Positions 12,261 to 28,024 of a stretch of 64,000 bases of DNA are shown here, piece after piece. The notes under the pieces are model-generated. The model worked only from the letters and a program-made list of their open reading frames with translations, ran no database searches and was not told the origin of the DNA. Numbering within the stretch: position 1 is the stretch's first letter; the number at the start of each line of letters is the position of its first letter. This DNA comes from Actinomycetota bacterium (GTDB lineage Bacteria > Actinomycetota > Actinomycetes > Streptosporangiales > Streptosporangiaceae): contig DAHVAR010000073.1 in assembly GCA_027314515.1 (NCBI GenBank), positions 1 to 64,000 on the forward strand. The letters are read 5' to 3'. The position numbers and the translations under genes are program-made.

Positions 12261-12263
12261 TAG

Positions 12264-12302
12264 CGCCCGGCGAGGTCTTAATCGCCCGGCTGAGGTCTTA
12301 AT
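12264..12302. repeat. 19/20-bp tandem duplication between convergent genes
   Basis: Units at 12264-12282 and 12283-12302 are identical except for one inserted base, with four bases of a third copy. The duplication is in the 61-bp gap between the TIGR03085 gene and the GNAT gene and is not a multiple of three. Confidence 0.8.
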
Positions 12303-12321
12303 CGCCGTGGCCGCAGCCAGG

Positions 12322-12837: not shown

Positions 12838-12867
12838 GCGGTCATAATGCCAGGGCGGACACCCGGG

Positions 12868-13536
12868 TCACCGGGTGGCCGCTGACAGCGCCTCGCGGAT
12901 CGCTGCCTCGCCAGCCGGGGTGCCGGCCTCGTCGCCGAACGAGCCGTACGGTGTCCCGTACACCGGCGTTCCCGGCTCCTGCCGCCAGCTGTCGCTCAGG
13001 TCGCCGGCGTCGACCGCGCCATAGCCGATCGAGTCGAGGAAGCGGGCCGCCTCGGCGCTGGCGGCTGGGTCGTCCCCGGCGATCGGCAGATACGACCGGT
13101 CGGCAGCGCCGGCCGGGCGGGCGAGCGAGCCCAGGTGCTTGTAGAAGATGTTGTTGAAGGCCTTGACCAGGGCAGCCCCGGCTAGCTGGTGCTGCAGCAG
13201 CTCGCTGCTTGTCTCGATGCCGTCGTCCAGCGCCGCGATGTGCCCGTCCCGCTCCGGATAGTAGTTGCAGGTGTCGAGCACCACCTTTCCGGCCAGCGGT
13301 CCGGCGGGAACGCTGAGATAGGCCCGGAGCGGGATCGACACGACGGCGATGTCGCCTGCAGCCGCCGCGTCCTCGGCCGTTCCTGCCCGTGCGAGCGGGC
13401 CCAGGTCAGCGACCAGGTCCGCGAGCGTGGCTGGTCCGCGCGAGTTGCTCAGCACCACCTGATGGCCCGCGGCCACGCTCAGTCGCGCCACGGTACTGCC
13501 GATATAGCCACTGCCGATAAAACCTATGATCGTCAC
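12868..13536 (-). CDS. F420/NADP-oxidoreductase-like Rossmann protein
   Basis: This 222-residue protein begins with a dinucleotide-binding motif GFIGSGYIGSTVARLSVAAG, followed by VVLSNSRGPATLADL, which suits NADP(H) binding. The central part VVLDTCNYYPERDG and the downstream VKAFNNIFYKHLG are characteristic of the NADPH-dependent F420 reductase-like / prokaryotic ketol-type NADP oxidoreductase family. Its partner substrate is unknown; reduction of coenzyme F420 by NADPH is one possibility. It lies 30 bp upstream of the GNAT gene's start side on the same strand, so the two could be co-transcribed. Confidence 0.8.
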   Translation of the reverse strand: MTIIGFIGSGYIGSTVARLSVAAGHQVVLSNSRGPATLADLVADLGPLARAGTAEDAAAAGDIAVVSIPLRAYLSVPAGPLAGKVVLDTCNYYPERDGHIAALDDGIETSSELLQHQLAGAALVKAFNNIFYKHLGSLARPAGAADRSYLPIAGDDPAASAEAARFLDSIGYGAVDAGDLSDSWRQEPGTPVYGTPYGSFGDEAGTPAGEAAIREALSAATR

Positions 13537-13586
13537 GGAACGGGGTAACCAGAGCCGGCCACCGAAGATTCCGCCCGGTTACCTGG

Positions 13587-14279
13587 CTACCGAACGGCTT
13601 TTCGGCCGACGCCGATGAGCTGGACGAGGTCGCCGATCGAGTCCAGGAGGTGCGGCGCGCCCGCGGCGGCAAGCGACTCCCTGCTGCCTGTGCCGGTGGT
13701 GACCGCCGCGACCAGGCCGGCCCCGGCCCGCAGCCCGGACTCGACGTCACTTGCGGTATCGCCGACGACCGCCAGCTCGGTCACCGCCCCGCCGCCGAGC
13801 CGGAGCAGCGCGGTCAGCGGCAGGTCCGGCCATGGCCTGCCGCGGCCCGCGTCGGCTGGCGACAGCGCCAGGTCGATGAGCGGCCGCCAGCCCAGCGCGT
13901 CGATCACGGCGTCCCTGGTAGTCGGCGCGAACCCGGTGGCCAGGCAGACCTTGATGCCAGCCGCGCGCAGGGCGGTAATGGTCTCGAGCGCGCCGGGCAG
14001 CGGGGTGACCAGGCCCTTGCGCACGGCTTCGGCGTAGCTCTGCTCGAAGACGCGATTACCCTGCCGGGCACGGTCGTCGCTGCCCAGCAGCCGCCGGAAC
14101 ACCTCGATCTTCGACTGGCCCATGGTGTCCCGGACGAACGCGATGGCCTCGTCGTATCCAGGCGCGCCAGGGACCAGGCCGAACTCGGCAGCGGCGGCCG
14201 CGAAAGCCGCCATGACGCTGCCATCGTCGGCCACCGTAGTGCCGGCCATGTCGAGGCAGGCGACCGTGATCTCAGGCAT
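13587..14279 (-). CDS. Phosphonatase-like HAD hydrolase
   Basis: This 230-residue HAD-superfamily protein has motif I as VACLDMAGTTVADDG (nucleophile Asp followed by M-A-G-T-T), motif II as CLATGFAPTTRD, the lysine-replacing loop region GRGRPWPDLPL and motif IV as VVGDTASDVESGLRAG. The combination DMAGTTV plus GRPxPD is typical of the phosphonoacetaldehyde hydrolase-like (PhnX-like) subfamily. It probably dephosphorylates or cleaves a small phosphorylated or phosphonate metabolite; no phosphonate pathway gene is next to it. It may be co-transcribed with the F420-reductase-like gene 50 bp downstream. Confidence 0.85.
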   Translation of the reverse strand: MPEITVACLDMAGTTVADDGSVMAAFAAAAAEFGLVPGAPGYDEAIAFVRDTMGQSKIEVFRRLLGSDDRARQGNRVFEQSYAEAVRKGLVTPLPGALETITALRAAGIKVCLATGFAPTTRDAVIDALGWRPLIDLALSPADAGRGRPWPDLPLTALLRLGGGAVTELAVVGDTASDVESGLRAGAGLVAAVTTGTGSRESLAAAGAPHLLDSIGDLVQLIGVGRKAVR

Positions 14280-14872
14280 CGCTCTCTCCGACCGTGGTTA
14301 CTCCGCCTGGCTGCTGTCTGGCGGGGTGCTGTCTGGCGGGGTACTGTACGGCTGCCACTCTAGGCCCGTAATTCGCACATGGGATGCGGTGGGATCGGCG
14401 CTCCACACTCGGTGTCCGCGACGCGGGGCGATGTTGAGCAGGTCGAGCAGGCGTAGTTGCAGGGTGTGGGGCTGGGGTAGTTCGGGGATTCCGTCGCTGG
14501 TGCCGACGCGCAGGCGCAGGGTGGCCAGGGCGGTGAAGATCAGGCTGGCGGTGGGCTTGGCCGGGCGCCGTCCGCGCTGGGCCGGCGTCAGCCATTTTCG
14601 CCAAGTACCACGATCATGCCAGACGCCGTCGCGGTGATGAAGCAGCATTCCGGTCCTGCCTGTCCTGGGCGATCCTCGCCTTCCGGTGACCGACGGCAAG
14701 CGGCGATCAGGGGACCGTGCCCGGTGACGGAAACCTGCGCCGAGCTATATGACTCGCCGGATGCGGTCTTTCGACTCTTGCCGCGGCGGGGCCCGGACTT
14801 CAGCGTCATAGGCAGGCTGACATGTACCGAATTCGGCGGTGCAGCCCGGTCGCACGGACCAAGGAGAACCCG
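14280..14872. other. 593-bp gap with a possible broken reading frame
   Basis: No intact gene is supported between the HAD hydrolase and the NlpC/P60 lipoprotein. On the minus strand, roughly 14298-14620 translates to a protein-like stretch (WRKWLTPAQRGRRPAKPTA, then LIFTALATLRLRVGT and LQLRLLDLLNIAPRRG) that reads like the C-terminus of a larger protein, possibly a mobile-element gene. I cannot name the family, and no start or inverted-repeat ends are visible. A 15-bp tandem duplication lies at 14312-14341. Confidence 0.4.
14312..14341. repeat. 15-bp perfect tandem duplication
   Basis: The unit TGCTGTCTGGCGGGG occurs twice without mismatch at 14312-14326 and 14327-14341, with a partial third copy. 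It lies between the HAD hydrolase start and the NlpC/P60 gene, outside a confident gene. Confidence 0.85.
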
Positions 14873-16066
14873 ATGCTCAGCATCCTGAGCGCCCAAGCAC
14901 GGCTGGCACCATCGGCCTCGGTTGGCTTGCCCCGGCTTTCCCGGACCTCGCTGAGTACGCTTGCCGTCGCGGTCGGCTCGGCTGCCGTTCTGGCCGCATG
15001 CGGTTCTGTCGCCGGGCCGCCAAGCCCGGCCTCGTCAGCTTCGGTGCCAGGCACAACGGCCACCAGCGGCTCGACTACCGTCGGTCCCGTCGCTGGCGGC
15101 AGCCCGACGGCAGCCGGCAACCCAGGGGCCGGCGCGGGCGCGCCTGCGCCCTGCGCGTCCGGCACGTGCTGGGTGGATGTGAGCGTCGCCACTGCGTGGG
15201 TGGAGCCGTGGTATTCGAGGACGGTCGACGGTCCTGCGCTGGGCAACCCTGCAGACCCCGGTGCCTGGCTCGCCAGCATGACCGTGACGCAGAAGCAGTG
15301 GCTGGTTGGCAAGCTGGAAACCCAGGCCCTCTACGGTGACCAGGTGATCGTGACCGGGCACTGGCAGAACTGGAGCCACGTCGTCATTCCCGGCCAGCCG
15401 ACCAACCGCGATTCCGGGGGTTATCCCGGCTGGATACCGACCAGTCAGCTCACCGGCACGGCACCGGCGTCCGCAAGTACCGCTGCCGTCGTCCGGTCAG
15501 CCACGGCATGGCTGTGGACGGGCTGGAACGCGACGACAGGTGTCACCGGCGGCAAGCTCATGCTGGCCTCGTACGACACCAGCCTGCCCGTGGTGCATGC
15601 CACCGCCGCCTATGTGGAGGTGGAGCTCATCGGCGGCCGCGACGTCGCGGTGCGCCGCAGCGACATCGTTCTGCACCCGGCCGGAAGTGACTGGGACGTC
15701 ACGTCGGCAATGGTGGTCGCCGAGGCTCGCAAGTTCCTCGGCCTGCCGTACTTGTGGGGTGGCACGTCCGGGTTCGGATTCGACTGCTCGGGGTTCACCT
15801 ATTCGGTGTTCCGGGCTTACGGAGTCACCCTGTCCCGCGACGCCGACCAGCAGGCGGTACACGGCACGCCGGTCGCCCGCAGCGCGTTGCAACCCGGCGA
15901 CCTGGTGTTTTTCCGCGACAGCAGCACCGGTCCCATCGGCCACGTGGGAATGTACCTCGGCGGCGGGAACATGATCGACGCGCCGCACACCGGCGCCGCG
16001 ACCCGCATCGAGCCAGTGTCCTCGTTCCCCTACTACGCCGGGGCCCGGCGGTACCTGTCCAGCTGA
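14873..16066 (+). CDS. Secreted NlpC/P60 (C40) peptidase lipoprotein
   Basis: This 397-residue protein is probably a cell-wall endopeptidase cutting peptide stems of peptidoglycan. The ATG at 14873 is chosen over an upstream in-frame ATG (14822) because AAGGAG lies 6 nt before it. A signal peptide ends in the lipobox LAAC with Cys43 as the lipidation site. A Ser/Thr/Ala/Gly-rich linker follows, then an SH3-like region (about residues 90-255: VDVSVATAWVEPW, GYPGWIPTSQLTG). The C-terminal NlpC/P60 domain has the catalytic Cys305 in FDCSGFTYSVF, His357 in IGHVGMYLG and His372 in APHTG. The layout resembles YkfC-like gamma-D-glutamyl-L-diamino-acid endopeptidases. A hairpin follows the stop. Confidence 0.9.
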   Translation: MLSILSAQARLAPSASVGLPRLSRTSLSTLAVAVGSAAVLAACGSVAGPPSPASSASVPGTTATSGSTTVGPVAGGSPTAAGNPGAGAGAPAPCASGTCWVDVSVATAWVEPWYSRTVDGPALGNPADPGAWLASMTVTQKQWLVGKLETQALYGDQVIVTGHWQNWSHVVIPGQPTNRDSGGYPGWIPTSQLTGTAPASASTAAVVRSATAWLWTGWNATTGVTGGKLMLASYDTSLPVVHATAAYVEVELIGGRDVAVRRSDIVLHPAGSDWDVTSAMVVAEARKFLGLPYLWGGTSGFGFDCSGFTYSVFRAYGVTLSRDADQQAVHGTPVARSALQPGDLVFFRDSSTGPIGHVGMYLGGGNMIDAPHTGAATRIEPVSSFPYYAGARRYLSS

Positions 16067-16100
16067 CACACCGGCACCGCAGCCGCAACAGACCGGTGTG
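16067..16100 (+). terminator. Hairpin after the NlpC/P60 gene
   Basis: Arms CACACCGG (16067-16074) and CCGGTGTG (16093-16100) pair perfectly across an 18-nt loop directly after the stop codon. The loop is long and there is no T-run, so this is a moderate candidate. Confidence 0.45.
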
Positions 16101-16574
16101 ACGATCGGATGCGGTCCGTGCTCTGGGCAAGGAGTCGCGCGCCAGGCCGGGTCCCGATCGTGGCGCAGGACATTGAGGCGTACCCGAACTCCGGCCGCGC
16201 GTGCCCGAACGGCCACCCAGGGGTCGGCGAGCGGCAAATCCTGTCGTGCTCGTTGTCAAAGACAGGCCCGCCGGCCCGCGATGCCGGCAGCCCATCAGCG
16301 GCTTCTCCGGGCCGCCTGCGGCAACAGGTCACTCCTTGAAGTCGACGCACCGCCAGCCGGCCAGTTCGCCGACGCGGACCTTCGTCTCCGCGTTCAGGCC
16401 GAGCGCATCTGCGCCGGGCGCGGTGCCGTGAGCTCGCACACCGGCCGGTCGATGACAACACCGGTGACCCTTGGCATACCTACAACGATCTCGGCATGAA
16501 GGGCCGGCGGTCCTCCGTTTAGCCTGTTCTCATGGCTGAAGGCGGTGCCGTGCTGTGCGGCTTCAGGCTGTCGT
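16101..16574. other. Gap with possible eroded coding sequence
   Basis: No intact gene is supported in this stretch between the NlpC/P60 gene and the deacetylase. On the minus strand around 16335-16500 two frames give protein-like pieces (VGMPRVTGVVIDRPVCELT, and further on ETKVRVGELAGWRCVDFKE ending in a stop), separated by a frame change. This may be the tail of a degraded gene. I do not recognise the family. Confidence 0.3.
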
Positions 16575-17483
16575 CTAGCCGGTCAGCGCGGCGAGCGTGA
16601 CGAACGAATAGCCTCGCGCCCGCAGCTCGGTGATGACCTGCGGAAGCGCATCGGCGTCGAACGTGGTGTGGTCGTCAGGATTAGATCCGACGTGCATGAG
16701 CACGATCTCTCCCGGCCGCAATCCGGCCAGGACTCTGGCCGCCACGACGGCGGCCGTGATGTGCCCGGCTGTTCCCTCCCAGCCCAGCGTGTCCACGGTC
16801 CAGCGCACCGGCACGTAGCCTGCCTGGTTGACGATCGCGATGGTGCGCGCGTCGGCGGCGCCGTAGGGGAAGCGGAACAGCCGCGCGGGGTTCTTACCCG
16901 TGACCGCGATGATCTGCCGTGCCGCGCCGGTGATCTGCTCGCGCACCGCCGCGTCGGTGAGCTGGGTCAGGTACGGATGGGAGATCGTATGGTTGCCGAT
17001 TCGCTCGCCAGCTGCGGCAATGGACCTGGCCGCGGCCGGGAAGTCGCGCACGAAGTTGCCGGTGAGGAAGAACGTCGCCGGGACGCCGTATCGCTGCAGC
17101 GTGGCCAGGATCGAGCTGACCGCGTCGGCGTTCGCTCCGGCATCGAAGGTCAGCGCGACTACGTGCCTGCTCGTCGGGATGTAGGTCCAGTCGGTCCCGG
17201 CGAGGCTGCCGGTCACCGGCGGTAGTCCCGATGCCGCCGGGCTCGGGCTCGCCGACCCCTTACTTGGGCTGCTTCTATGTGGAGCCGGACTCGTTCTATC
17301 TGGAGCCGGACTCGGACTCGACGAGGCCGGAGTGGCAGAACCGGCTGTCGGCGCCGCCGTGGCCGGCCCGGTGTGCACCGGGGATCTAGACGGCGTAGAG
17401 CCTGCCGTTGGCGTGCCGCCGCCGCATGCCGCCACCACCGCCAGCACGCAGACTGCGGCGGCAGCCCGTGCAATCCATCGCAT
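16575..17483 (-). CDS. Polysaccharide deacetylase (NodB-like) lipoprotein
   Basis: This 302-residue secreted protein probably removes acetyl groups from peptidoglycan or another surface polysaccharide. The ATG at 17483 gives a short signal peptide with a lipobox (VVAAC, Cys20); the open frame continues upstream without similarity. A Ser/Pro/Thr-rich linker (residues 24-88) leads to a NodB domain. Motif 1 is ALTFDAGANAD with Asp114, motif 2 is NHTISHP with metal-binding His165 and His169, motif 3 is RFPYGAAD, and the late motif is IVLMHVGSNPDDH. The second aspartate of the classic TFDDG is alanine here, a variant seen in part of the family. The gene is on the minus strand, facing the NlpC/P60 gene. 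Confidence 0.9.
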   Translation of the reverse strand: MRWIARAAAAVCVLAVVAACGGGTPTAGSTPSRSPVHTGPATAAPTAGSATPASSSPSPAPDRTSPAPHRSSPSKGSASPSPAASGLPPVTGSLAGTDWTYIPTSRHVVALTFDAGANADAVSSILATLQRYGVPATFFLTGNFVRDFPAAARSIAAAGERIGNHTISHPYLTQLTDAAVREQITGAARQIIAVTGKNPARLFRFPYGAADARTIAIVNQAGYVPVRWTVDTLGWEGTAGHITAAVVAARVLAGLRPGEIVLMHVGSNPDDHTTFDADALPQVITELRARGYSFVTLAALTG

Positions 17484-17628
17484 ATGTACAGGATCGCCGG
17501 AGCCCTCGGCTTGACAGCAGGCCGGTAGTCCGCAATCCGACGGCAATGGTCCCCGGATTGCCCGCCTGCGGACGGGCTGCTGGCCTTGGCGGCAACCTGT
17601 GCCTGCGGCCGAGTCGGGCGGCGGGCCT

Positions 17629-17801
17629 GGGCGGCTGATGACACGGCCGGTGCTGGCCGAGGGCAGCCTGGTTCGCGACCTGTACGGGGAACCGGTCGTG
17701 CAAGAACGACACCGGCACCGGTACGAGGTCAACAACTACTACCGGACAGAGCTGGAGAAGGCGGCCTGGTCTGCTCTGGTCTTTCGCCCGACGGCCGGCT
17801 G
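17629..17801 (+). pseudogene. pyrG (CTP synthase) C-terminal fragment
   Basis: The plus strand encodes the unmistakable C-terminal glutaminase segment of CTP synthase: [15 protein letters not shown], then [14 protein letters not shown] and TELEKA in one frame, and [13 protein letters not shown] in the next frame. A single missing base around 17761-17766 explains the frame change. The start of the gene, the synthetase domain and most of the amidotransferase domain are absent, and after GRL only doubtful remnants continue to about 17850. It lies between two minus-strand lipoprotein genes with no related gene nearby. It is therefore a decayed fragment, not an expressed enzyme; a functional pyrG must be elsewhere. 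Confidence 0.85.
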
Positions 17802-17876
17802 CACGTGCCTGGCAGGCAGCAAGCCACAGCTCGCGGGCCGGACCTCCGCATGACCGCTGTACCTGTGTCCGGTTGT

Positions 17877-19003
17877 TCAGCTGGTGAGGCTGCCAAGGCT
17901 CACCAGGACGGTGGACTCGGTGCCGTTGCGTGACAGGCGTGCCTGGACCCGGTCGGGTTTGTACGCGGCCAGCACCGACTGCAGCGCGGCGACCGAGGTG
18001 ATTGGCTGGCCGGCCAGGTCGGTGATGACGTCGCCCGCCATGATGCCGGCCTTGGCTGCTGGGCCGGTCGCGGCCACGCTGATGACCCCGATTCCAGCGG
18101 GCTGTCCGCTGGCATCGGCGACGGTCTGCGCGGTGACGCCCAGCGACGCCCGCCCGGAGTTAGTGACTTTGCCGGCAGTGATCAGCTGCCTTGCGATGCT
18201 GGTGATGGTATCGCTGGGGATCGCGAAGCCGATCCCGGCCGCTGCGCCGCCGAGCTGCGGGTCTGCCGCGGCGAGAGTCGGGATGCCGATCACCTGCCCG
18301 GCCAGGTTGACCAGCGCGCCGCCGCTGTTGCCGGGGTTGATCGCGGCGCTGGTCTGGATGGCGCTAATGAGAACTGCGGAACTGCCCTGGCCCTCGGCAA
18401 CGGTGCGCCCGGTCGCCGAGACGATGCCCTCGGTCACCGTGCCGGTCAGGCCGAGCGGGCTGCCCATGGCCAGCACAATCTCACCAACCCGCACCGACGC
18501 CGACCGGCAGAACGACGCGGGGTGCAGCGCGCTGCTCCCCGCTTGCACCTTGATCACCGCCAGGTCGTCGGGGGCGAACACGCCGATGACCCTGGCGGCC
18601 AGCGGGCTGCCGCCGCTGGCTAGGCCTACCTCCAGCGTCGTGGCCGTGCCGACCACGTGGGCGTTGGTGACAATGTCGCCCTCGGTGTCGTAGACCACCC
18701 CGGACCCCGATCCCTGGCTCGTGGAGATCTGCACGACCGAGGGGAGCACCCGGCTCACCACCTGCTCGTACTGCTGCTCCAGCGAGGAGGCGGCCTCGGA
18801 CGAGGTCACCGGAGGGGCAGAGCTTGCGGCCGGAGCGAACCCGCTTCCGCCGGTGCTGCTGCAGGCTACCGCGCTCAGGGCCAGCAGGATGATCCCGGCA
18901 CCGCCGAGCCGTCGGCCAGCTGTAAGCCTCCACGGCCTGGCACGTGGCGCCTGCTGTGCTTACTCATCCACGGCTCATCGCCGCCGGTTAGGTCGACGCG
19001 CAT
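17877..19003 (-). pseudogene. HtrA-like serine protease with N-terminal frameshift
   Basis: The frame from a GTG at 18809 encodes a complete S1C protease plus PDZ domain (310 residues). Counted from that codon, His51 is in TNAHVV, Asp82 in PDDLAVIKV and Ser162 in INPGNSGGALV, with a PDZ domain near residues 215-305. Upstream in the same frame there is a lipoprotein-like signal (GAGIILLALSAVAC) but no usable start codon before a TAA at 18960-18962. The best start, ATG at 19003 with AGGAGG at 19010-19015, is in another frame and reads MRVDLTGGDEPW then MSKHSRRHVPGR. A one-base deletion between about 18873 and 18959 would join them. Either the gene is a recent pseudogene, the base call is wrong, or the protease starts at 18809 and stays cytoplasmic. 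Confidence 0.75.
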
Positions 19004-19129
19004 TCCGGTCCTCCTGCACGCTAATGACACCGCTATGGGTATCGCGACTGCCAGAGTTCCGGGCAGGGCCATTGGGCCCGGCGCACGGCCGCAAGAAGCC
19101 TGGACATGGGAAAATGGCTTCATCCCCAA

Positions 19130-19689
19130 TCCTGTAGACCTCGACACCCTGCGGACCTCGCCCTCCCCAAGCTTGCGGCGAACGTGCTGTCGAGAAGGCG
19201 AGCCGCAGCGGGCCGGCGGCGAACGCGATCGACGTCAGCAGCACCAGGCCCTCGGGCACCATTGCCGACACCCCGCCGCCGACCCGCGCACGGCGTCGGC
19301 CAGTGGCCGGTGCTGCGGAAGAACTCGCTGCCGACCAGCAGCAGCCCTGCCGGGATCATCACCCAGGCCACCATCCGCAGGATCACGCTGGTGCCCTGCT
19401 GCAGTTCGGACCGGATCAGACTGAACCGCCGTGCCTGTGCCTGCAACCGGCTGGCGTACGACAGCCCGCCCACGGCGGCTACCCGTGCCCGGCCGCTGCC
19501 TGCGACGACAAAGCTGCCGGACAGCACCGTTTCCCAGGCCGTTTCGGCACCGGGTCAGCCTCTCCGGTGAGCGCCGCGCAGCACCCGGGCCCAGGGCCAT
19601 ATGGTGCGGTCCGGTCCCGGCGGTGGCGTGTTCACCTGCCCGGCCAGCACCCGCTCACGCACCTCCGCAGAGCTGAGTCCCCTGGTCAT
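19130..19689 (-). pseudogene. P-type cation ATPase remnant (CtpE-like)
   Basis: The minus strand holds disconnected pieces of a P-type ATPase. An intact-looking N-terminus starts at ATG 19689 (MTRGLSSAEVRERVLAGQVN, then TPPPGPDRTIW) and ends at a stop soon after. After a deletion of the first membrane helices and part of the actuator domain comes VLSGSFVVAGSGRARVAAVG, then SYASRLQAQARRFSLIRSEL and the third helix. Two further frame changes are needed to read LADAVRGSAAG and then SAMVPEGLVLLTSIAFAAG, the fourth helix. The DKTG phosphorylation site and everything after it are missing. The arrangement resembles the actinobacterial CtpE group. It cannot make a working pump. Confidence 0.8.
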
Positions 19690-19697
19690 GACGGTGC

Positions 19698-20027
19698 TCA
19701 CGTCGGTGTCACGCCGGACAGGCTGAGCGCGATCACCCCGGCGAGGATCAGCGCGATCGAGACCAGCTTGATCGCAGACACCGACTCCCCCAGTGCCCAC
19801 ATTCCGACCACGGCCGTGCCCGCGGCGCCAAGCCCGGTCCACACCGCGTACGCCGACCCCACCTCCAGCTTCTTCAGCGCCACGGTCAGCAGCCCGAAAC
19901 TGATCAGCGCACAGGCGGCGAAGCCCACCGTTGGCCACAGCCGACTGATCCCGTGGCTTTGCTTCAGCAGCACCGCGAAGCCGGTCTCGAACACTCCCGC
20001 CACGATCACCAGCAGCCACGCCACCAC
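19698..20027 (-). CDS. Small multidrug resistance (SMR) family exporter
   Basis: This 109-residue protein has four membrane helices. The first helix carries the essential glutamate in VIVAGVFETGFAVLLKQSHG. The segments KLEVGSAYAVWTGLGAAGT and LGESVSAIKLVSIALILAGV are typical of the family. The K-x-S-H-G sequence after helix 1 and the overall match are closer to the SugE/Gdx (guanidinium exporter) type than to EmrE, but this is inference. A GTG start at 20027 is chosen: AAGGGGG lies about 6 nt upstream and the length is normal. It is the only member here, although many SMR proteins come in pairs, and it is one of the few intact genes in this eroded strip. Confidence 0.85.
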   Translation of the reverse strand: MVAWLLVIVAGVFETGFAVLLKQSHGISRLWPTVGFAACALISFGLLTVALKKLEVGSAYAVWTGLGAAGTAVVGMWALGESVSAIKLVSIALILAGVIALSLSGVTPT

Positions 20028-20298
20028 CGTCACCCCCCTTGCGGCAGCGGCGAGCCCGGTCGCCAGCCGGAACTGCCAGCGAGCGCAGACGCCCGTGCCG
20101 AAGTCAGCCCTGCGGATCCGCCGCGATTCATCGCTCTGGTCACCTTTCTGCGAGTCCGAGCGCGGCCTCTGGCTGCCGGTCCGGGCGATCCGGCAGATTC
20201 GCGACCAACCCTGCCGGAGGCCGCCCGGCAAGATGCGCAGCGACTCCGGAAATCCCGGAGTCGCTGCGAGGTAGAAACCGAAAGCCAGGACCGGCGGG

Positions 20299-20523
20299 CT
20301 AGACGCCTGCGGGCGCTGCGTCGACGCGTGACGCAGGCGTGGTGCTGGCGCCGCTGGGCAGCAGCATAGCCGGGACCTGGACGCCGGGCCGCGCTAGGGC
20401 GGCGGCCTGCTCGCGGGCCAGGAAGGAGCCGAGTTCCTCGATCGTGGACATCAGCGGGGCCGGGAACACCACGGTGGTGTTCTTGTCCACGCCGATCTCG
20501 ACCAGGCTCTGCAGGTTCCGCAG
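20299..20523 (-). pseudogene. SPFH/band-7 (slipin-like) C-terminal fragment
   Basis: The minus strand encodes the end of an SPFH/band-7 membrane-scaffold protein: LRNLQSLVEIGVDKNTTVVF, then PAPLMSTIEELGSFLAREQA and a short Ala/Pro tail. The membrane anchor and the main SPFH domain are absent, and the fragment is joined directly to a truncated oxidoreductase upstream (20524-20938). The junction suggests a deletion that fused two neighbouring genes and inactivated both. Confidence 0.7.
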
Positions 20524-20938
20524 TCAAGGAGTCCCGCGGTCTCGTCCGGCATCAGCCGCGCACCCGTGGCCACGACGAGTGTCCCGGCTGGCTGGAGAAG
20601 GTATTCACCTTCTACAGCTTGCGCGAAGCTGCTGTCACGTCATAGCCGATCGAGGTGCCATCAGCCAGCAGCACGGTGTCGTTCTGGAGGTCGACGTGGT
20701 CGATCGCGCTGCAGTGAAACTCGATCCCGGCTCGCAATTGATGTTGCCTGGACCGGACCAGCGCTTCGGGTTTTGCCAGCCCGAACGGCACGAACAGCAG
20801 GCCAGGCTGATACACGTGCTTGTCATCGGCGTCGACCACCACGATCTCGGCCGCGCCGCGAGACAGCTGACGGCGCAACCGGTTCGCCAGCAAGGTCCCC
20901 CCAGTGCCGCCGCCGAGCACGACAATCCGCTTTCGCAC
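20524..20938 (-). pseudogene. Sulfide:quinone-reductase-like N-terminal fragment
   Basis: The minus strand starts with MRKRIVVLGGGTGGTLLANR, an FAD-binding Rossmann motif, and continues with VVVDADDKHVYQPGLLFVPF and GIEFHCSAIDHVDLQNDTVL, which is characteristic of sulfide:quinone oxidoreductase-type flavoproteins. After SIGYDV the frame is interrupted by about 50 extra bases containing two small hairpins. The expected continuation (TLVVATGARLMPDETAGLL) then follows in another frame. The rest of the enzyme, including its C-terminal quinone-binding half, is missing. It is non-functional as it stands. Confidence 0.75.
20596..20631. repeat. Two adjacent short hairpins inside the broken oxidoreductase
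   Basis: One stem has arms AGAAGGT and ACCTTCT (20596-20602, 20607-20613); the next has arms CAGCTT and AAGCTG (20615-20620, 20626-20631). They make up most of the extra sequence that separates SIGYDV from VVATGARL in the broken gene. They may mark a small inserted element. Confidence 0.5.
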
Positions 20939-21139
20939 AAGCTCCGTGTCGGTCTAAACCAGCCGCGTCTCTTAGAGCCGATGGTCCCGGCCGGCGGGGC
21001 TATCTGGCCTGCCACGCAGGCTGTCGCACGGTGTGACCTGGCGGGGCGGGAACGCCCAGCGTCACGGGATGCCGGTTATCTGCAGGCCGGTATCGGCCGG
21101 GAATGAAGCGACGGTCTTGCTCGTTAACGCAACCAAGAT

Positions 21140-21155
21140 ATACCCCATGGGGTAT
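21140..21155 (+). promoter_or_regulatory. CsoR/CstR-like 16-bp palindromic operator
   Basis: The sequence ATACCCCATGGGGTAT is a perfect 16-bp palindrome 15 bp upstream of the DUF2892 start codon. Operators of CsoR-family repressors, including the persulfide-sensing CstR, typically have this form (AT-flanked runs of C and G around the centre). The neighbouring sulfide:quinone-reductase fragment and DUF2892 gene favour a sulfur-stress regulator. No csoR-family gene is in the window. Confidence 0.65.
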
Positions 21156-21169
21156 TTTGGAGGTGCGTC

Positions 21170-21373
21170 ATGAGAATCGTCAGGATGATGAACTCGACCG
21201 CGGGGCGGAGCGCCCGTGCCCTTGCAGGCGCGGGGCTGATCGCCGCGGGCGCGGTGGTCGGCGGCGGCACCGGGCTATTCCTCGCGCTTGTGGGACTCGT
21301 GCCGCTGGCCGCGGGAGCGGCGGGCACGTGCCTGGCCGCGCCGCTGCTGCACGCGCCGCTGCGCGCCCGCTAA
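21170..21373 (+). CDS. DUF2892 (YgaP-like) small membrane protein
   Basis: This 67-residue protein begins with MRIVRMMNSTAGRSARALAG and consists mostly of two hydrophobic segments (about residues 19-34 and 38-57), ending in PLLHAPLRAR. This matches the DUF2892 / YgaP transmembrane domain family, which often accompanies rhodaneses, sulfide:quinone reductases and persulfide regulators. The GGAGG ribosome-binding site at 21159-21163 is 6 nt before the ATG, and a palindromic operator lies just upstream. It appears intact, unlike its neighbours. Its biochemical role is unknown. Confidence 0.8.
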   Translation: MRIVRMMNSTAGRSARALAGAGLIAAGAVVGGGTGLFLALVGLVPLAAGAAGTCLAAPLLHAPLRAR

Positions 21374-21469
21374 GGGCACCGGCGCTGACCAACACCCCAG
21401 CACACGAGAACCGGGCCCAGGCCGCGCCGTCTTGACGGCCTGGGTCCCGGTCCGGCCACCAGATCCCGG

Positions 21470-21874
21470 CCTGGTCCAGCGTCCTTGCCTCCATCGCCCA
21501 CCCCGACGACGCGACGTTCGGGCTCGGCGGGATCATCGCCAAAGTGACCGGCGGCGGCGCTGCAGTGCACATCCTGTGCTTCACCCACGGCGAGGCTTCC
21601 ACGCTGAACGAGACCGAGCAGATTTGCATGCCACCAGTGAGGCGGAGCTGCGGCAAGCCAGCACCGAGCCCGGGACAGCCAGCGTGACCCTCCTCGGCTA
21701 CCCCGACCGCCAGCTGCCCAACCAGCTCGACCCGTGCATTCGCGCCGCACCGCGCTCCTGCACGCCAGCCAGATTTCACCCACCGCCGCCTTGTGGCGGC
21801 GGCTCCAGCTGCTCGGCGACTGTGAACACCTGCGCTGGCTCCGCCATCCCGCGCAGCCGAGCGCCCGGCGGTAA
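21470..21874 (+). pseudogene. PIG-L (LmbE-like) deacetylase remnant
   Basis: The plus strand carries three frame-separated pieces of a PIG-L family zinc deacetylase. The first has the metal-binding IAHPDDATFGLGGIIA and the downstream CFTHGEASTLNETE. A frame change leads to EAELRQASTEPGTASVTLLG and YPDRQLPNQ. After an internal deletion that removes the later metal ligand region, the typical C-terminus appears (HASQISPTAALWRRLQLLG, EHLRWLRHP) and ends at the TAA at 21872-21874. No start codon precedes the first piece. In actinobacteria this family includes mycothiol-pathway and resistance enzymes; which one this was cannot be decided. Confidence 0.8.
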
Positions 21875-21980
21875 GAAGCAACCGGGTAGAACGACCCGGC
21901 ACAGCAAGATCAAAGGGCTCTTTGCGCACCGCCGGAGGGCACGCAAGCCGACTCACCTGGCCTCATCTGCGAATTACGGT

Positions 21981-22226
21981 CTAGGTGACGAACGTCCCCT
22001 TTGCCGGGAGGGTCACCACCAGGCCGCGCTGGCGTAGCTCCTCAACGGCACGGCGCGCAGTTCCGACGGCAACCTGGTAATCGGCCGCAAGATCACGTTC
22101 AGCGGGCAGCCTGGCACCCGCCTGCAACTCCCCCGCCTCGATCCGGGCCGCGATGTGATTAGCCACGCCGACGTAGACGTAAACCGGCCCGAGCGCATTG
22201 GCATCGAACCGGGGCACCTTCCCCAT
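21981..22226 (-). CDS. Small GntR-type winged-helix regulator
   Basis: This 81-residue protein is essentially one GntR winged helix-turn-helix domain. It reads PVYVYVGVANHIAARIEAGE, then LQAGARLPAERDLAADYQVA with the recognition helix VGTARRAVEELRQRGL and the wing VTLPAKGTFVT. There is no effector-binding domain; such short GntR proteins are common in actinobacteria. The ATG at 22226 is chosen over a GTG at 22235 because AGGG lies 8 nt upstream of it. It is divergent from the 22382-22813 gene, so it might control that gene or itself. Confidence 0.75.
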   Translation of the reverse strand: MGKVPRFDANALGPVYVYVGVANHIAARIEAGELQAGARLPAERDLAADYQVAVGTARRAVEELRQRGLVVTLPAKGTFVT

Positions 22227-22295
22227 GAAGATCACCCTAGAACGCTTGTGAACTGCGGAAAGAGTCAGGACGCGGTCTGCTGCTTCAGAGCGCTC

Positions 22296-22301
22296 TATAG
22301 T
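22296..22301 (+). promoter_or_regulatory. Possible -10 element for the 22382 gene
   Basis: The hexamer TATAGT lies 80 bp upstream of the GTG start at 22382 in the gap between two divergent genes. The -35 region is not clear. An in-frame ATG at 22307 would be almost leaderless if this promoter is used, which is an alternative start. Confidence 0.35.
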
Positions 22302-22381
22302 GCGTTATGCTGAGCGCAGGCAGCCTGGTCTCCCCCGCGGCACGAAGTCGTCCGCCGGCCAGGCAGATAGTGGAGGCGGTA

Positions 22382-22813
22382 GTGGACAGAAGCGACGCAT
22401 CCGCGCTCGCCGATCTGCAAATGCACTGGGACGAGGCCTACACGATCGGCCTCGATGGTGACATCTGGTCGGCCAGGTTCCACGGCTCAGCGGACGAGCT
22501 CCGCGCCCACACCAGCACCGAGTTGCGTGAGCTGATCCGTGCCGACTACATGTACCGGCAGCGGGCGCGCCGCGCTTCCCGCGGCAGGGCCTACGACGAG
22601 AATCTCGACGCCCTTGACGACCCCGACGCCTTCGACGACGACCCCGACGACGACGCTTACGAGGCTCACTTCGACAGCACCGGGATCGGGGCCGCCCGCA
22701 CGGAGACGGCCGCCAGCAGCGCTGACCCGCCCCGGCGCCAGTCCGGGACGAGCCTGCCCGCCTCGCCCCCCGTCAGTTTCGCGGACATCAGCGGCGAGCG
22801 GATGTCGACCTGA
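22382..22813 (+). CDS. Hypothetical acidic protein
   Basis: This 143-residue soluble protein has no recognised catalytic motif. The N-terminal 60 residues (LADLQMHWDEAYTIGLDGDI, WSARFHGSADELRAHTSTEL, RELIRADYMYR) resemble a small actinobacterial family often found next to regulators, with unknown function. The middle is strongly acidic (an Asp-rich stretch around residues 75-95) and the C-terminus is low complexity. The GTG at 22382 is preceded by GGAGG with a 5-nt spacer; the frame is open back to 22307. It is divergent from the small GntR gene, suggesting a regulatory link, but this is inference. Confidence 0.6.
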   Translation: MDRSDASALADLQMHWDEAYTIGLDGDIWSARFHGSADELRAHTSTELRELIRADYMYRQRARRASRGRAYDENLDALDDPDAFDDDPDDDAYEAHFDSTGIGAARTETAASSADPPRRQSGTSLPASPPVSFADISGERMST

Positions 22814-22930
22814 CGGCAGTGCCTGCTAGCCAGCGGATAGCCGACGGCCGGCCGCTGGCTCTGCCCTAGGCTGTGGCAGAGAACCCGTCCGGCCCGGCAA
22901 GCCGCCGGCCGGAAGCCACCGGAGGCGAGC

Positions 22931-23683
22931 ATGGCTCATGTGCTTGGCATCGATATTGGCGGCACCGGAATCAAAGCTGCCCCAGCTGATACCACGCGCG
23001 GCGAGCTGATCGCCGAACGGCAGAAGATCGACACTCCGCAGCCCGCTACCCCAGAAGCCGTCACCGAGGTAGCCCGGAAGCTGGTAGCCGACTTCTCCTG
23101 GACCGGCTCGGTCGGCATCACGTTTCCCGGAGTCGTGGTGGGCGGCATCATCCAGACAGCGGCGAACCTGGATCACAGTTGGATCGGCACAGACGCCGTC
23201 AAGGCTTTCGGTGCCGCGACCAGGCTGTCCGTCTCCGTTATCAACGACGCCGACGCCGCGGGCATCGCGGAGATGGCCTTCGGTGCCGGCCACGGTGTTC
23301 GCGGCACTGTGCTGCTGCTCACGCTAGGTACCGGAATCGGCAGCGCGCTGTTCATCGACGGCACGCTGGTGCCCAACACCGAGTTCGGCCACATCCAGAT
23401 CCGCGGCAAAGACGCTGAGAGGAGAGCTTCCGAGCATGCCCGCGAAGAACACGATCTCAGCTGGGGAGTGTGGGCGGGCCGGGTCGATGAGTATCTCGCT
23501 CACATGGAGGCTCTGCTGTCGCCCGACCTGATCATCATCGGCGGTGGCATAAGCAAGAAGTCCGATAAGTTCCTGCCGCGGCTGACCGGGCTGCGCGCGA
23601 AGATCGTGCCTGCAGCGATGCTGAACGACGCCGGCATCGTCGGTGCCGCCATGGCGGTGGGACGCGGCGGCCGGCCCGACTAG
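22931..23683 (+). CDS. ppgK: Polyphosphate glucokinase
   Basis: This 250-residue ROK-family kinase phosphorylates glucose with polyphosphate (and usually ATP). The phosphate-binding motif is [13 protein letters not shown], the catalytic-aspartate region is [16 protein letters not shown], the adenosine motif is [12 protein letters not shown], and the family-specific [13 protein letters not shown] and [11 protein letters not shown] are present. Length and motifs match actinobacterial PpgK. The ATG at 22931 follows a GGAGG-type site. The end overlaps the convergent membrane-protein gene by 4 bp. Confidence 0.95.
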
Positions 23684-24459
23684 CCGGAGCCAGAGTAGCC
23701 GGAGCCGGGCGGGCCCGCCTGGCTCGAGCCGCCAGGCCGACCAGGGTCCGGCCACCGCACAGGGTGACCGCCATCACCACCCTGACCGGCATCAGTCTCA
23801 CCCCAGTCCGGCGGTGCCGGAGGGTAAGGCCCTGTCATGAACGAGTCCATACCCGGCATCGTCACCGGCCCGGACGGCTCTTGACGCCGGCTCCTCATCA
23901 CGGCGACTAGCTCTATGCCGCCCGCCATCGCAGCTGCGGCAAGCGGCCAGAAGGCCAGCGCGCCGGGTGAGCCGAGTGAGATGGGCGCGTACAGATAGGT
24001 TCCGGGTCTGCTCGTCGCGAGCAGGTGATTAAATCCGGGTCCGCCCGATGCCTGGTGTCCGAGCCATTCAGCAGCATAGGCCGCCGCGATCGAGCCGAGG
24101 ATCACGCCGGCCATCGGCAGCGGGCCATAACGCCGGATCGCGAAGAGGTAAGCCAGCAGGCCCAGGAGCGCGCCGCCGGCCAGGGCGATGAAGCAGTACC
24201 AGCCATCGGCCGCGATGAAGGAACTTGTCTCTGGGTTGGTGGCATACGCGGTCGGCGGGTTCAGGGTGTACATCTGGTACTGCACTCGCGGCGCCACGGC
24301 CGCCCAGACCAGCCCGGCGGCTACGCCGGCCACCGCGCTTCCGGCGACAACCAGGACGGCCGCGAGCAACGCGCGGCCCCATTGCGGACTGAACCGCGTG
24401 TCGACGGCGCGACGCGAGGCCGGCCCGGCCGGCGGCGGACGCATGCTGTGCTCGGTCAT
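23680..24459 (-). CDS. Predicted four-helix membrane protein
   Basis: This 259-residue protein has hydrophobic segments at about residues 29-55, 87-108, 114-132 and 165-185, flanked by a basic N-terminus and a long Pro/Gly-rich cytoplasmic tail. The extracytoplasmic part between helices 1 and 2 contains VQYQMYTLNPPTAYATNPET and FIAADGWY. The arrangement resembles actinobacterial DUF2567-like membrane proteins, but I am not certain of the family. No enzymatic motif is visible. The start at 24459 gives MTEHSMRPP. Confidence 0.65.
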   Translation of the reverse strand: MTEHSMRPPPAGPASRRAVDTRFSPQWGRALLAAVLVVAGSAVAGVAAGLVWAAVAPRVQYQMYTLNPPTAYATNPETSSFIAADGWYCFIALAGGALLGLLAYLFAIRRYGPLPMAGVILGSIAAAYAAEWLGHQASGGPGFNHLLATSRPGTYLYAPISLGSPGALAFWPLAAAAMAGGIELVAVMRSRRQEPSGPVTMPGMDSFMTGPYPPAPPDWGETDAGQGGDGGHPVRWPDPGRPGGSSQAGPPGSGYSGSG

Positions 24460-24647
24460 AGCTTCCTAGCAGGGTACGGGACGAAACCGCGAAGCCGGAC
24501 ACCGGTGGCGCCGATTTCGTGATCTTCGCTGGTTCCGCCGAATAGCGGAACTGGGTTTGGCGGGAACGTGGCGGCACCCTGATCCGGGGCTCTGGTACCT
24601 TGGCAACGCGATAGGACTCAACTCTGCGTCACCACATGAGGACACCG

Positions 24648-25628
24648 ATGATTGAGGTCACGGACCTTAGCAAGCGCTTCGGGGACAAGGTGGCCGTCGA
24701 TCACCTGTCCTTCACGGTTCAGCCGGGCAGGGTGACGGGCTTCCTCGGTCCCAACGGCGCAGGGAAATCCACGACGATGCGACTAATCCTGGGCCTGGAC
24801 CATCCGAGCGGAGGCTCGGCCACCATCAACGGCAGGAAGTACGCCGAGCTGGCCAGCCCGTTGCGGACGGTGGGAGCTCTCCTCGAGGCCAAATCAGTAC
24901 ATAGCGGTCGCAGCGCACGGAACCACCTCCTGTTCCTTGCGCAGACCCAGGGCCTCCCGCCCAGCCGGGCCGACGAGATGCTCGACATGGTGGGCCTGCG
25001 CGATGTCGCGAGGAAGCGAGCCGGCGGCTTCTCCCTGGGCATGGGCCAGCGCCTCGGCGTCGCCGCTGCGCTTCTTGGCGACCCGCAGGTCCTGCTCCTG
25101 GACGAGCCGGTCAACGGCCTCGACCCGGAGGGCGTGCTGTGGATCAGGAACCTGATGAAGTATCTGGCCAGCCAGGGCAAGACGGTCCTGGTATCAAGTC
25201 ACCTGATGAACGAGATGGCGGTGACCGCTGATCACCTGGTCGTCATCGGGCGCGGCAAGCTGATCGTCTCCGCCGCCACGGAAGATGTCATCGCCCGCGG
25301 CTCTGGCCAGACCGTCCGCGTCCGCACGCCAGAGCCAGGCCGGCTGACGGACCTGATCGTCACCGAGGGCGGCAAGGCCATCCCGGCAGAGAACGGTAAC
25401 GGCGGTGCGGCAGCACCTGACGGCCAGGCCCCCGTCCTCACCGTCACCGGCCTTGCCGCACCACGTATCGGCGAACTCGCGGCATCAGCGTCGATCGTGC
25501 TGCACGAGCTCACGCCTCAGCTCGCGACGCTCGAGGACGCCTTCCTCGAGCTCACCTCCGAGAGTCTTGAGTTCGGACATGCAAGTGCCCAGCCGGCTGG
25601 CCAGTCCATCGAGGAGAACGTCCGATGA
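24648..25628 (+). CDS. ABC transporter ATP-binding protein
   Basis: This is the ATPase of a two-gene exporter of the drug/bacitracin type. The Walker A motif is GFLGPNGAGKSTTMRLILGL, the signature is FSLGMGQRLGVAAALLG, Walker B is VLLLDEPVNGLD, and the H-loop is VLVSSHLMNEM. The C-terminal 100 residues form the extra domain common in DrrA/BcrA-like proteins. The ATG at 24648 (MIEVTDLSKRFG) is preferred over 24636 because an AGG sits 6 nt upstream and family members start there. The stop overlaps the permease ATG as ATGA. The exported substrate is unknown. Confidence 0.92.
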   Translation: MIEVTDLSKRFGDKVAVDHLSFTVQPGRVTGFLGPNGAGKSTTMRLILGLDHPSGGSATINGRKYAELASPLRTVGALLEAKSVHSGRSARNHLLFLAQTQGLPPSRADEMLDMVGLRDVARKRAGGFSLGMGQRLGVAAALLGDPQVLLLDEPVNGLDPEGVLWIRNLMKYLASQGKTVLVSSHLMNEMAVTADHLVVIGRGKLIVSAATEDVIARGSGQTVRVRTPEPGRLTDLIVTEGGKAIPAENGNGGAAAPDGQAPVLTVTGLAAPRIGELAASASIVLHELTPQLATLEDAFLELTSESLEFGHASAQPAGQSIEENVR

Positions 25629-26479
25629 GCATGACCACCGCCTCCGGCCAGCTCGACTCCGCTGCTACCCAAGCCAGTCAGCCCGGTGGTGCGGCCGGAT
25701 TCGGCCGTCTGATGGCCGCCGAGTGGACCAAGCTCCGGTCCGTCCGGTCTACCGTCTGGACGCTGCTGCTCTTCGTGATTATCACCATCGGCCTGACCGC
25801 CCTGCTGAGCTGGCTGACGGTGTCGAACTGGACCGGTCCTCGGGCCGCGCCCCGAGATGCCAGGGTGGCGGCTGACCCGATCGGCTTCATCTTCGGGGCC
25901 GGAATCGGGCTGGGCCAGCTCACCATCTGCGTCCTCGGGGTGCTGCTGATCACGACCGAGTACTCAACCGGCGTTATCCGCGCCTCGCTGCTCGCGGTCC
26001 CGAAGCGGTACCCCATGCTTGCCGCCAAGCTCGTCGTGTTCGGTCTGCTCATGCTGGTGCTCGCCGAGCTTGTCGCATTCGGCTCGTTTTTCGCCGGCTC
26101 AGCCATCCTGCACAGCCGGGTGGCGGTGTCGCTGAGCGGTCCGGGCGTGCTGCGGGCAACCCTCGGCGCCGGCTTCTACCTGACGGTTCTGGGCATCCTG
26201 GCGGTTGCGGTCGGGGCAATAGTCCGGCATACGGCAGCCGGCATCAGCATCGTCATCGGCATAGTGCTCGTGCTGCCCATTCTCGCCGGGCTGCTGCCCA
26301 GCAGCTGGGGCGCGCACATCAACGCCTACCTGCCGCAGCAGGCCGGGTCGCTGATCTACGCTGTGCACCAGAGCAGCGGTCAGCTGCTCACGGCCTGGGA
26401 AGGCTTCGGCGTCTTCTGCATCTGGACAGTGCTGCTGCTCGCGGTCGCGGCTTACCTGCTCAACCGCCGGGATGCCTGA
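25625..26479 (+). CDS. ABC transporter permease (ABC-2-like)
   Basis: This 284-residue membrane protein partners the ATPase immediately upstream. After a short cytoplasmic part containing LMAAEWTKLRSVRSTVWTLL, six hydrophobic segments can be counted, including the pair around IGLGQLTICVLGVLLITTEY and the helices LVVFGLLMLVLAELVAFG and AAGISIVIGIVLVLPILAG. The segment TTEYSTGVIRASLLAVPKR is typical of this permease group. It overlaps the ATPase gene by 4 bp, so the two are translationally coupled. Confidence 0.9.
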   Translation: MSMTTASGQLDSAATQASQPGGAAGFGRLMAAEWTKLRSVRSTVWTLLLFVIITIGLTALLSWLTVSNWTGPRAAPRDARVAADPIGFIFGAGIGLGQLTICVLGVLLITTEYSTGVIRASLLAVPKRYPMLAAKLVVFGLLMLVLAELVAFGSFFAGSAILHSRVAVSLSGPGVLRATLGAGFYLTVLGILAVAVGAIVRHTAAGISIVIGIVLVLPILAGLLPSSWGAHINAYLPQQAGSLIYAVHQSSGQLLTAWEGFGVFCIWTVLLLAVAAYLLNRRDA

Positions 26480-26526
26480 CCGGATCGTGGCCGCGGGCGG
26501 CTGGAAAAGCCCCGCCGGGGAGCAAG

Positions 26527-27903
26527 TCAGCTCGCCGCGACGGCCAGGGCCTCGCTGATCGAAACAACCCGCTGGTAGGCGCGGCTCACATCGGCCCGGT
26601 CGCCGGGCTCGTCCACGCTGCCCGCGCTGAGTCGCTCGATCATGCCTGCCTGGTCGAGCAGCACCTGCCGGTCCTGTGGCCTCGTCGTGCGCTCCATGAT
26701 CCTTGCCAGCGCATCAAGCTGCCTGATAAGCACCGCTGGCATGCCGCGGCCAGCCTGCCGGACCTTCTCGAAGGCGCGCTGCACGAGCCGCTCCCAGGTG
26801 ACCTCGGCGGCGATGACCCGCACCGCTCCGCTGGAGTCCCGGTAAACCCTCGTGGGCTGCCACCTGCCGGTAACCTTGCACAGGCTGTCGCCGATCCAGT
26901 CAATGCAGGTCAGCGCCGTGAACGTGTCATTCACCGCGGTGGACAGCGCCCGGATGCAGATCTCGACCAGCTGGTCAACCCCGAACGACACGTCCTGGGC
27001 GAGCGTGCGGTACGGCCCGGTGACATGCGCCAGGGATAGCTCTTCCGCGACCCGGCCGGCCGCCTCAGGCGGCCAGACAGTGGCGTACACGGTCCCCTGG
27101 GTGATGAAGTGGCCCGGTCGGTAGCGCACGTGAACGACCGCGTCGACCTTTGTGGCGATCGCGATGAGCGTCTCATGCTGGATGTACTGCAGGTAGCCGC
27201 TGCGGGGCGCCTCGACCACCCCGCCCTCCCCGTCCATTCCGGCGATCAGCAGCGCGGCCATCTCGGCGTCGGCGCCCACCGGCGGATCCCCGGCCTGGAG
27301 CTCGATGGCCTTTTGCAGGTCACCGGCGATCCCGGCAATCACCTGGGGCAACTGGATCTGGACGGCGATGTGATGCAGGAAGTAGATCAGCACGGCCAGG
27401 TCGGCCAGCATCAGCGCCAGGGTCACAGTGACGCTGATGTGCGGCACGAAGCTCCCGTGACTGCCCTGGCCGACAGAGCCCAGCGTCAGCACCGCGTAGA
27501 CGAACGTAGCCACGTAGGTGCCAAGGGTGAGCTGGGTGCCGCGGTCGCGGATGAAATTGCGCAGCATGCGCGGCCCGAATTGAGTAGAGGTCAGCGTCAG
27601 CGCGACGATCACGATCGAGAACACGACGCCGATGACCGTGATGACGGCGGCCGCGATCGCGGTCAGCACAGTCCGGGCGACATCCGGGGAGCCGCTGATG
27701 GCCCAGCCGGGAACCTTGAAAGCGCCGTCGTAGGCGGCCCGGTCGAGTGCGTAGGTGCCGATGAACAAGATCACCGCAGCGACGACTTCGACAGCGGGTA
27801 CCAGCCAGAGATTGGTCCGCAGAACCTCGCGGCGCCACTGCGACCCACGCAGCAGCCTGCGAAGCGCTGACGCCCGGCCTGAGCGCCAACCGTACCGATC
27901 CAT
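26527..27903 (-). CDS. DUF2254 membrane protein
   Basis: This 458-residue protein belongs to the DUF2254 family of predicted membrane proteins. Its N-terminal 180 residues contain four hydrophobic segments (LWLVPAVEVVAAVILFIGTY, TVLTAIAAAVITVIGVVFSI, QLTLGTYVATFVYAVLTLG and the following TLALMLADLAVLIYFLHHIA). The conserved VALTLTSTQFGPRMLRNFIRD follows the second helix. The soluble C-terminal part has GYLQYIQHETLIAIATK, a conserved CIRALSTAVNDTFTALTCIDW and a regulatory-looking tail. The ATG at 27903 has GGAGG about 7 nt upstream. Its function is not established. Confidence 0.85.
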   Translation of the reverse strand: MDRYGWRSGRASALRRLLRGSQWRREVLRTNLWLVPAVEVVAAVILFIGTYALDRAAYDGAFKVPGWAISGSPDVARTVLTAIAAAVITVIGVVFSIVIVALTLTSTQFGPRMLRNFIRDRGTQLTLGTYVATFVYAVLTLGSVGQGSHGSFVPHISVTVTLALMLADLAVLIYFLHHIAVQIQLPQVIAGIAGDLQKAIELQAGDPPVGADAEMAALLIAGMDGEGGVVEAPRSGYLQYIQHETLIAIATKVDAVVHVRYRPGHFITQGTVYATVWPPEAAGRVAEELSLAHVTGPYRTLAQDVSFGVDQLVEICIRALSTAVNDTFTALTCIDWIGDSLCKVTGRWQPTRVYRDSSGAVRVIAAEVTWERLVQRAFEKVRQAGRGMPAVLIRQLDALARIMERTTRPQDRQVLLDQAGMIERLSAGSVDEPGDRADVSRAYQRVVSISEALAVAAS

Positions 27904-28024
27904 GGCGAGCCTCCATGGGAGTAACCTGAACTGCCGACCAGGCTTCCCGGCTCACCTCAGGCCACGATAGCAGCGGGACCGGCCGGGCAGGCCCGGCGGG
28001 ACCGGCGTCCAGTCCGTCCCGGTA

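Follow-up and report, generated by a model that had tools for sequence, protein, structure and literature searches.

A cluster of broken genes in a Streptosporangiaceae genome probably lies within a decaying transposon relic with IS1634-family ends

When several broken genes lie side by side among intact neighbors, have they decayed where they stood, or did they arrive from elsewhere? This question is raised by a 64,000-nucleotide stretch of a draft genome of an Actinomycetota bacterium of the family Streptosporangiaceae (GenBank assembly GCA_027314515.1, contig DAHVAR010000073.1, positions 1 to 64,000; hereafter, the window). An initial annotation, made from the sequence alone, placed fragments of five or six genes at 17629-21874, with intact genes on both sides, and took them for an ancestral cluster that had decayed in place, probably recently. 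We found the unit that holds this interval to be a 7,615-bp insertion, window 14365-21979. It is likely a degenerate composite or mobile-cassette transposon relic of 7.6 kb, bounded by ends of the IS1634 family of insertion sequences (ISs), which would have inserted after the lineage split from its closest sibling genome and whose cargo is decaying.

The insertion is most plainly seen by its absence from the sibling genome, G006 (handles of this kind for genomes, contigs, and loci are our own). Contig C153 of G006 carries both flanks without the insertion, and pairwise BLAST joins window position 14364 directly to 21980. The two aligned blocks, window 11343-14364 at 91.8% and 21980-31755 at 94.9%, overlap by the six bases TCTAGG with nothing between them; this hexamer is present once in G006 and on each side of 14365-21979 in the window. 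The TAG inside it is read as the stop codon of a GntR-type gene, and this stop is preserved. The flanks were searched for in nine genomes of the genus, the window's own among them, and one contig stretch from each of the eight congeners was compared with the window, with matches kept only within window 5000-36000 at an E value of 1e-8. Both flanks of the locus were found on contigs in six of the eight congeners (G001, G002, G003, G004, G006, and G008), and in all six, 14365-21979 is absent from the locus; those examined from G005 and G007 do not reach across it. None of the eight stretches has a match inside 14365-21979.

Decay of an ancestral cluster in place would fit a region in which several genes have frame changes and deletions. 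The initial annotation had proposed a comparison with relatives to find the intact cluster, and that comparison instead led us to reject local decay, given the empty site of G006 with its single TCTAGG. The six congeners that have both flanks on one contig without the insertion also speak against it, as do G001 and G003, in which about 1.3 kb of different sequence lies between the flanks (in G003, an oxidoreductase-like frame by eye), and we give this explanation hardly any probability at all. At the same locus in G008 (C292, L035), about 8.7 kb without a match to the window's insertion lies between the flank genes, so the site may tolerate different insertions.

The boundaries of the insertion are near-identical inverted repeats: it starts with CCCGTAATTCGCACATG and finishes with the complement of CCGTAATTCGCAGATG (Table 1). 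In the 5.86-Mb host genome, the end pattern CCGTAATTCGCAVATG / CCGTAATTCGCA[A/C/G]ATG occurs without mismatches only at these two positions. Allowing up to two mismatches gave five sites in the host genome, compared with two for the reversed control, and with up to three mismatches, the pattern was found in five of 60 genomes including the host, with only one site per genome outside the host and therefore no other pair. The inverted end is present a third time (the complement of CCCGTATTTCGCACATG) at L043:310-335 (G000:C265, near the contig end), beside TCTAGA, and this copy is probably part of another broken element of the same type in the host genome. Just inside this copy, we noticed by eye a look-alike of the C-terminus of an IS3-type orfB.

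Table 1. Features of the insertion and its boundaries, with coordinates in the window (nt, nucleotide identity; aa, amino acid identity; rc, reverse complement)
Feature	Position	Strand	Evidence
Target duplication TCTAGG, left copy	14359-14364	.	sequence and BLAST-block overlap at the G006 empty site
Left terminal inverted repeat CCCGTAATTCGCACATG	14365-14381	+	matches IS termini in G050 and Candidatus Mycobacterium methanotrophicum
IS1634-family 3'-terminal remnant, about 60 residues of the transposase C-terminus	14365-14567	-	72% nt over 222 columns, 62% aa over 69 columns to L118
NlpC/P60 lipoprotein gene, open	14873-16066	+	PF00877 E 2.6e-26; 72% nt to G052 (another genus of the family)
Polysaccharide deacetylase lipoprotein gene, open	16575-17483	-	PF01522 E 3.5e-34; 76% nt to G356 and G360
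pyrG (CTP synthase) internal fragment, one frame change	17648-17801	+	about 91-92% nt to host pyrG (G000:C270) and G006 pyrG
HtrA/DegP-like protease	17877-18959	-	TIGR02037 E 1.3e-69, 235 bits, below the cut-off of 416; 83% nt to G356
P-type ATPase fragment, pieces from three reading frames	19197-19577	-	PF00122 E 1.5e-6; 83% nt to G362:C539
SMR-type small multidrug exporter, open	19698-20033	-	PF00893 E 1.3e-22; 76% nt to G041
SPFH/band-7 protein, C-terminal fragment	20329-20523	-	91% nt over 126 bp to G083; blastx; name from the initial annotation
Sulfide:quinone-reductase-like (SQR) flavoprotein, N-terminal fragment	20529-20938	-	NF049943 E 3.8e-31, 108 bits, below the cut-off of 525
YgaP-like (DUF2892) membrane protein gene, open	21170-21373	+	PF11127 E 7.4e-7
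PIG-L deacetylase remnant, internal deletion and frame changes	21442-21853	+	PF02585 E 4.8e-10
IS 5'-terminal remnant, about 34 bp, ending in the right inverted repeat	21946-21979	-	85% over 34 bp to the IS 5' end of Candidatus M. methanotrophicum
Right inverted repeat, rc CCGTAATTCGCAGATG	21964-21979		within the right IS remnant; exact pattern match
Target duplication TCTAGG, right copy	21980-21985	.	its TAG read as the stop of the adjoining GntR-type frame (minus strand)

Both ends are homologous to intact elements of the IS1634 family. In a search of 60 genomes, the left-end peptide matched G050 and G056 besides the host (55% and 53% amino acid identity), and the proteins of these two genomes score 232 and 248 bits against the NCBIfam model of the IS1634 transposase, NF033559, with a cut-off of 100. 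The left remnant itself, of which only about 60 C-terminal residues remain, matched no Pfam or NCBIfam model, and its peptide had no match at E 0.01 among 72,556 plasmid records. IS701, IS5, and IS1380, considered because of the CTAG target, were dropped as candidate families because the relatives of the left remnant exceed the NF033559 cut-off. The element of G050 is about 1.73 kb long and has inverted ends of the same type, with GCTAGC on both sides. A scan of public genomes with the end pattern returned five stretches, one of which is a Candidatus Mycobacterium methanotrophicum element (NZ_CP097320.1, L115/L118) some 1.75 kb long, and the window's left 207 bases, duplication included, are 72% identical to the 3' end of this IS. 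The Mycobacterium element resembles the window's in both termini and in its CTAG-centered target but differs in its smaller size and in being free of cargo. At L117:6913-7429 of NZ_CP097320.1, ends of this IS form another pair, separated by about 0.5 kb that includes part of the transposase frame, and this pair looks like an internal-deletion derivative.

The terminal inverted repeats of the insertion match those of an IS1634-family member, and TCTAGG, at 6 bp, has the length of the target duplications of the family. In an excerpt of PMC2266710, IS1634 duplications are given as 5-6 bp and AT-rich, with two members that make much longer ones, and the excerpted table of PMC3281130 lists ISPfe2 with a 6-bp duplication. 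From these ends, we propose that a relic bounded by two ends of an IS1634-family IS would have entered TCTAGG at the stop codon of the GntR-type gene after the lineage had split from G006. Its transposase has been lost except for about the last 60 residues and, with nearly all of it gone, the element could move only with transposase supplied in trans; a related transposase may have mobilized it. The host genome has eight other IS1634-type matches, and an open frame of 566 codons is among them. The cargo, a mix of actinobacterial genes that trace to more than one lineage, would have been gathered in other actinobacteria, and little selection on most of it would have led to its decay.

Several observations count against a relic of this kind. 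A second copy of the 7.6-kb unit was not found in the host genome or among the matches listed in 345 genomes. The homology of the right end to the IS is short (34 bp), and TCTAGG is unlike the AT-rich, sometimes far longer duplications reported for IS1634 in the excerpt of PMC2266710. The window's ends were not seen around the four of the eight host IS1634-type matches that were scanned, and no helper was demonstrated among them. For the pyrG piece, the nearest relatives are in the clade of the host (92%) and not in g89, the other genus to which part of the cargo points, so the cargo has more than one source. In addition, the GC-rich window holds 604 inverted 16-mer pairs with at most one mismatch, and 6-bp direct flanks accompany six entries among them: the element itself, a palindrome that enters twice, and three further pairs. 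Because inverted repeats alone are common and prove little, the argument rests on the agreement of the ends with the sibling junction and with a known IS.

An assembly chimera or poor local sequence, a possibility raised by the initial annotation, might be expected in a draft genome of 280 contigs with an estimated contamination of 3.55%. The flanks also have 33 indels in 18,963 columns aligned to G006, many of them clustered and partly inside frames at 8.3-10.9 kb and beyond 31.7 kb. The junctions, however, fall exactly on the inverted repeats and the target duplication, and open frames of 398, 302, and 111 codons are interspersed with broken ones in the cargo. Among flank frames with at least 55% of their differences in the third codon position, ten (in 11577-14297 and 21984-31600, overlapping antisense frames not counted) are gap-free compared with G006, and four others have gaps of 1 to 22 residues (7479-8570, 8276-9667, 9574-10914, and 10563-11372). 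Intact frames right beside the insertion speak against frame breaks due to poor sequence, and an artifact of this kind seems very improbable to us; most flanking genes look intact, as first described. Farther out, at window 31756-31833, a 78-bp stretch inside the 31607-33853 frame has no counterpart in G006, and three 1-bp gaps lie just before it.

The ancestry of the cargo is mixed. An order-wide DNA search covered 345 genomes, of which 243 matched at 1e-40, with one or two candidates scored per genome. The matches listed involve no part of the insertion other than HtrA or the deacetylase, and we did not treat these genomes as carriers of the unit; apart from the window's own genome, the best match listed spans 936 of the 7615 bases of the query. 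Among the same matches, HtrA is closest to four genomes of genus g89 (81-83% nucleotide identity; G356, 83%), compared with 69-72% among the matches seen in congeners, and the deacetylase is closest to two of those g89 genomes (76%). The ATPase fragment is 83% identical to G362, also of genus g89. By these comparisons, both HtrA and the ATPase appear to have their closest relatives in another genus. In G356 and G360, HtrA and the deacetylase are neighboring but divergent; in the window, by contrast, the two share a strand and are separated by the pyrG piece. A frame beside HtrA in G356 (L108:13726-15168) looks by eye like a broken P-type ATPase, and the HtrA neighborhood may be unstable in this donor-like genus too.

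The pyrG piece, which is 76-82% identical to seven other congeners, bears on the timing of the insertion. At two sites, it keeps the base of all twelve other genomes compared, where host and sibling share a different base. The remaining sites are mixed, with one or two at which it agrees with host or sibling and others at which its base is its own. Over its 154 bp, this pattern is suggestive of a piece that may have separated before the host and G006 species did. It would also suit an element that predates the split and was lost from G006 by precise excision, since the fragment keeps a base that both host and sibling have lost. The other congeners are without the element as well, and a precise excision that restores one copy of TCTAGG is rare for this element type. 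We consider such a loss improbable and think that the insertion would have followed the split, rather than having been cleanly excised from the sibling.

The mixed affinities also bear on whether the cargo came with the ends. A plain IS1634-family element may have inserted first, with other DNA later landing in or replacing its interior and debris collecting at a neutral site. The target duplication proves only the joint entry of the two ends, the fragments have different affinities (pyrG with the host clade, HtrA and the ATPase with another genus), and the absence of a second copy of the whole unit from our searches would be consistent with nested insertions. Yet it would take many separate events, all of them after the split from a sibling that remains 92-95% identical across the flanks, and the pyrG piece, which lacks at two sites the base common to host and sibling, hints at a separation before the species split. 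Later accumulation is therefore a scenario that we hold to be unlikely, though with an appreciable share of the probability, and we give the larger share to cargo that would have arrived as one unit inside these ends. It is quite improbable, in our estimate, that the fragments are pieces captured repeatedly from several genomes by a non-autonomous IS1634-ended element, a counterpart of plant Pack-MULEs, as opposed to decayed whole genes. Among the titles and abstracts listed in the literature searched, outside subscription journals and ISfinder, there were no IS1634 elements built of gene fragments.

Within the insertion, the genes are in different states of decay. Four frames are open, one (HtrA) is without a start, and five are truncated, four of which are also frame-changed. 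Blastx against relatives, with antisense alignments ignored, was used for the fragments, as tblastx was too noisy in this GC-rich DNA. Together with family models, it confirmed that the broken-gene fragments are real and lie where they had first been placed. The SMR and YgaP-like frames, named at the outset as functional in appearance, are indeed open (PF00893 and PF11127). The extent of the interval did not hold, as the true unit, 14365-21979, also contains the open NlpC/P60 and polysaccharide deacetylase genes. Just upstream of the YgaP-like gene, at window 21140-21155, is the palindrome ATACCCCATGGGGTAT, which we presume to resemble the operators of CsoR/CstR-type persulfide or copper sensors.

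The body of HtrA is open over 310 amino acids (17877-18809, minus strand), and ATG, GTG, and TTG are all absent in frame with its lipoprotein signal. The differences between this body and G356 at the three codon positions number 37, 22, and 96 in 310 codons, and those between other copies are similar, for example, 33, 24, and 106 in 337 codons for G356 and G361. Because of this resemblance, HtrA would have been under constraint until recently. With this constraint still visible and the ATPase pieces 67-95% identical in amino acids to one relative, the suggestion that the decay is recent is borne out in part. Of five proteins tested with PADLOC, only HtrA matched, to two RT-protease models through the protease part, and we read this as a shared protease domain instead of a role in defense.

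The other broken genes retain shorter parts of their proteins. By blastx, the pyrG fragment corresponds to residues 455-516 of a 581-aa frame (17620-17801, plus strand) and the ATPase fragment to residues 84-211 of a contig-truncated 707-aa frame (19577-19197, minus strand); a stretch upstream of 19577 resembles an ATPase N-terminus by eye, on which we base no claim. The SPFH stretch is 89-91% identical to the DNA of five genomes and matched no Pfam or NCBIfam model. Within a few bases, it is adjoined by the SQR fragment, which covers residues ~22-122 (20887-20529, minus strand) with one frame change, while a second homologue extends to 20938. The rest of the host genome gave no more than weak DNA matches to SQR and SPFH (best E 0.003). 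In the PIG-L remnant, residues 74-171 are directly followed by 259-295 of a 309-aa frame (21442-21844, plus strand).

Composites bounded by IS1634-family elements have already been described. Tn6097 of Paracoccus, as presented in the excerpt of PMC3281130, is a functional composite transposon between two copies of ISPfe2, an IS1634-family member. Like the window's element, it carries cargo between IS1634-family ends and is flanked by 6-bp direct repeats, but in that account both of its IS copies are complete and identical and it was captured through transposition, whereas the window's element keeps ~200 bp and 34 bp of IS. Because complete IS copies are lacking, we do not file it as a composite of the Tn6097 type. 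The IS231/MIC231 mobile insertion cassettes, named in the excerpts of both PMC2266710 and PMC3281130, offer another parallel, in which passenger DNA lies between one end of an IS and the place of its transposase, and the ends persist without the transposase gene. As described there, they belong to a different IS family, while most passengers of the window's element are broken and its mobility is putative. In the features that define a mobile insertion cassette, the insertion has IS ends, a transposase reduced to a C-terminal remnant, and passenger genes.

The account with which this analysis began has no mention of the inverted ends or the target duplication, of what remains of the transposase, or of the foreign affinity that much of the cargo shows. 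The locus is an instance of an ordinary kind of genome evolution whose boundaries are unusually clear. Broken genes that lie together can have been imported instead of decaying locally, and comparison with one close sibling can settle which. This locus adds an actinobacterial, CTAG-centered case to the mosaic elements bounded by IS1634 and shows decay at one moment, with broken genes next to others that are still constrained. The capture of fragments by bacterial transposons would become testable with the discovery of more elements that have gene fragments between IS1634 ends.

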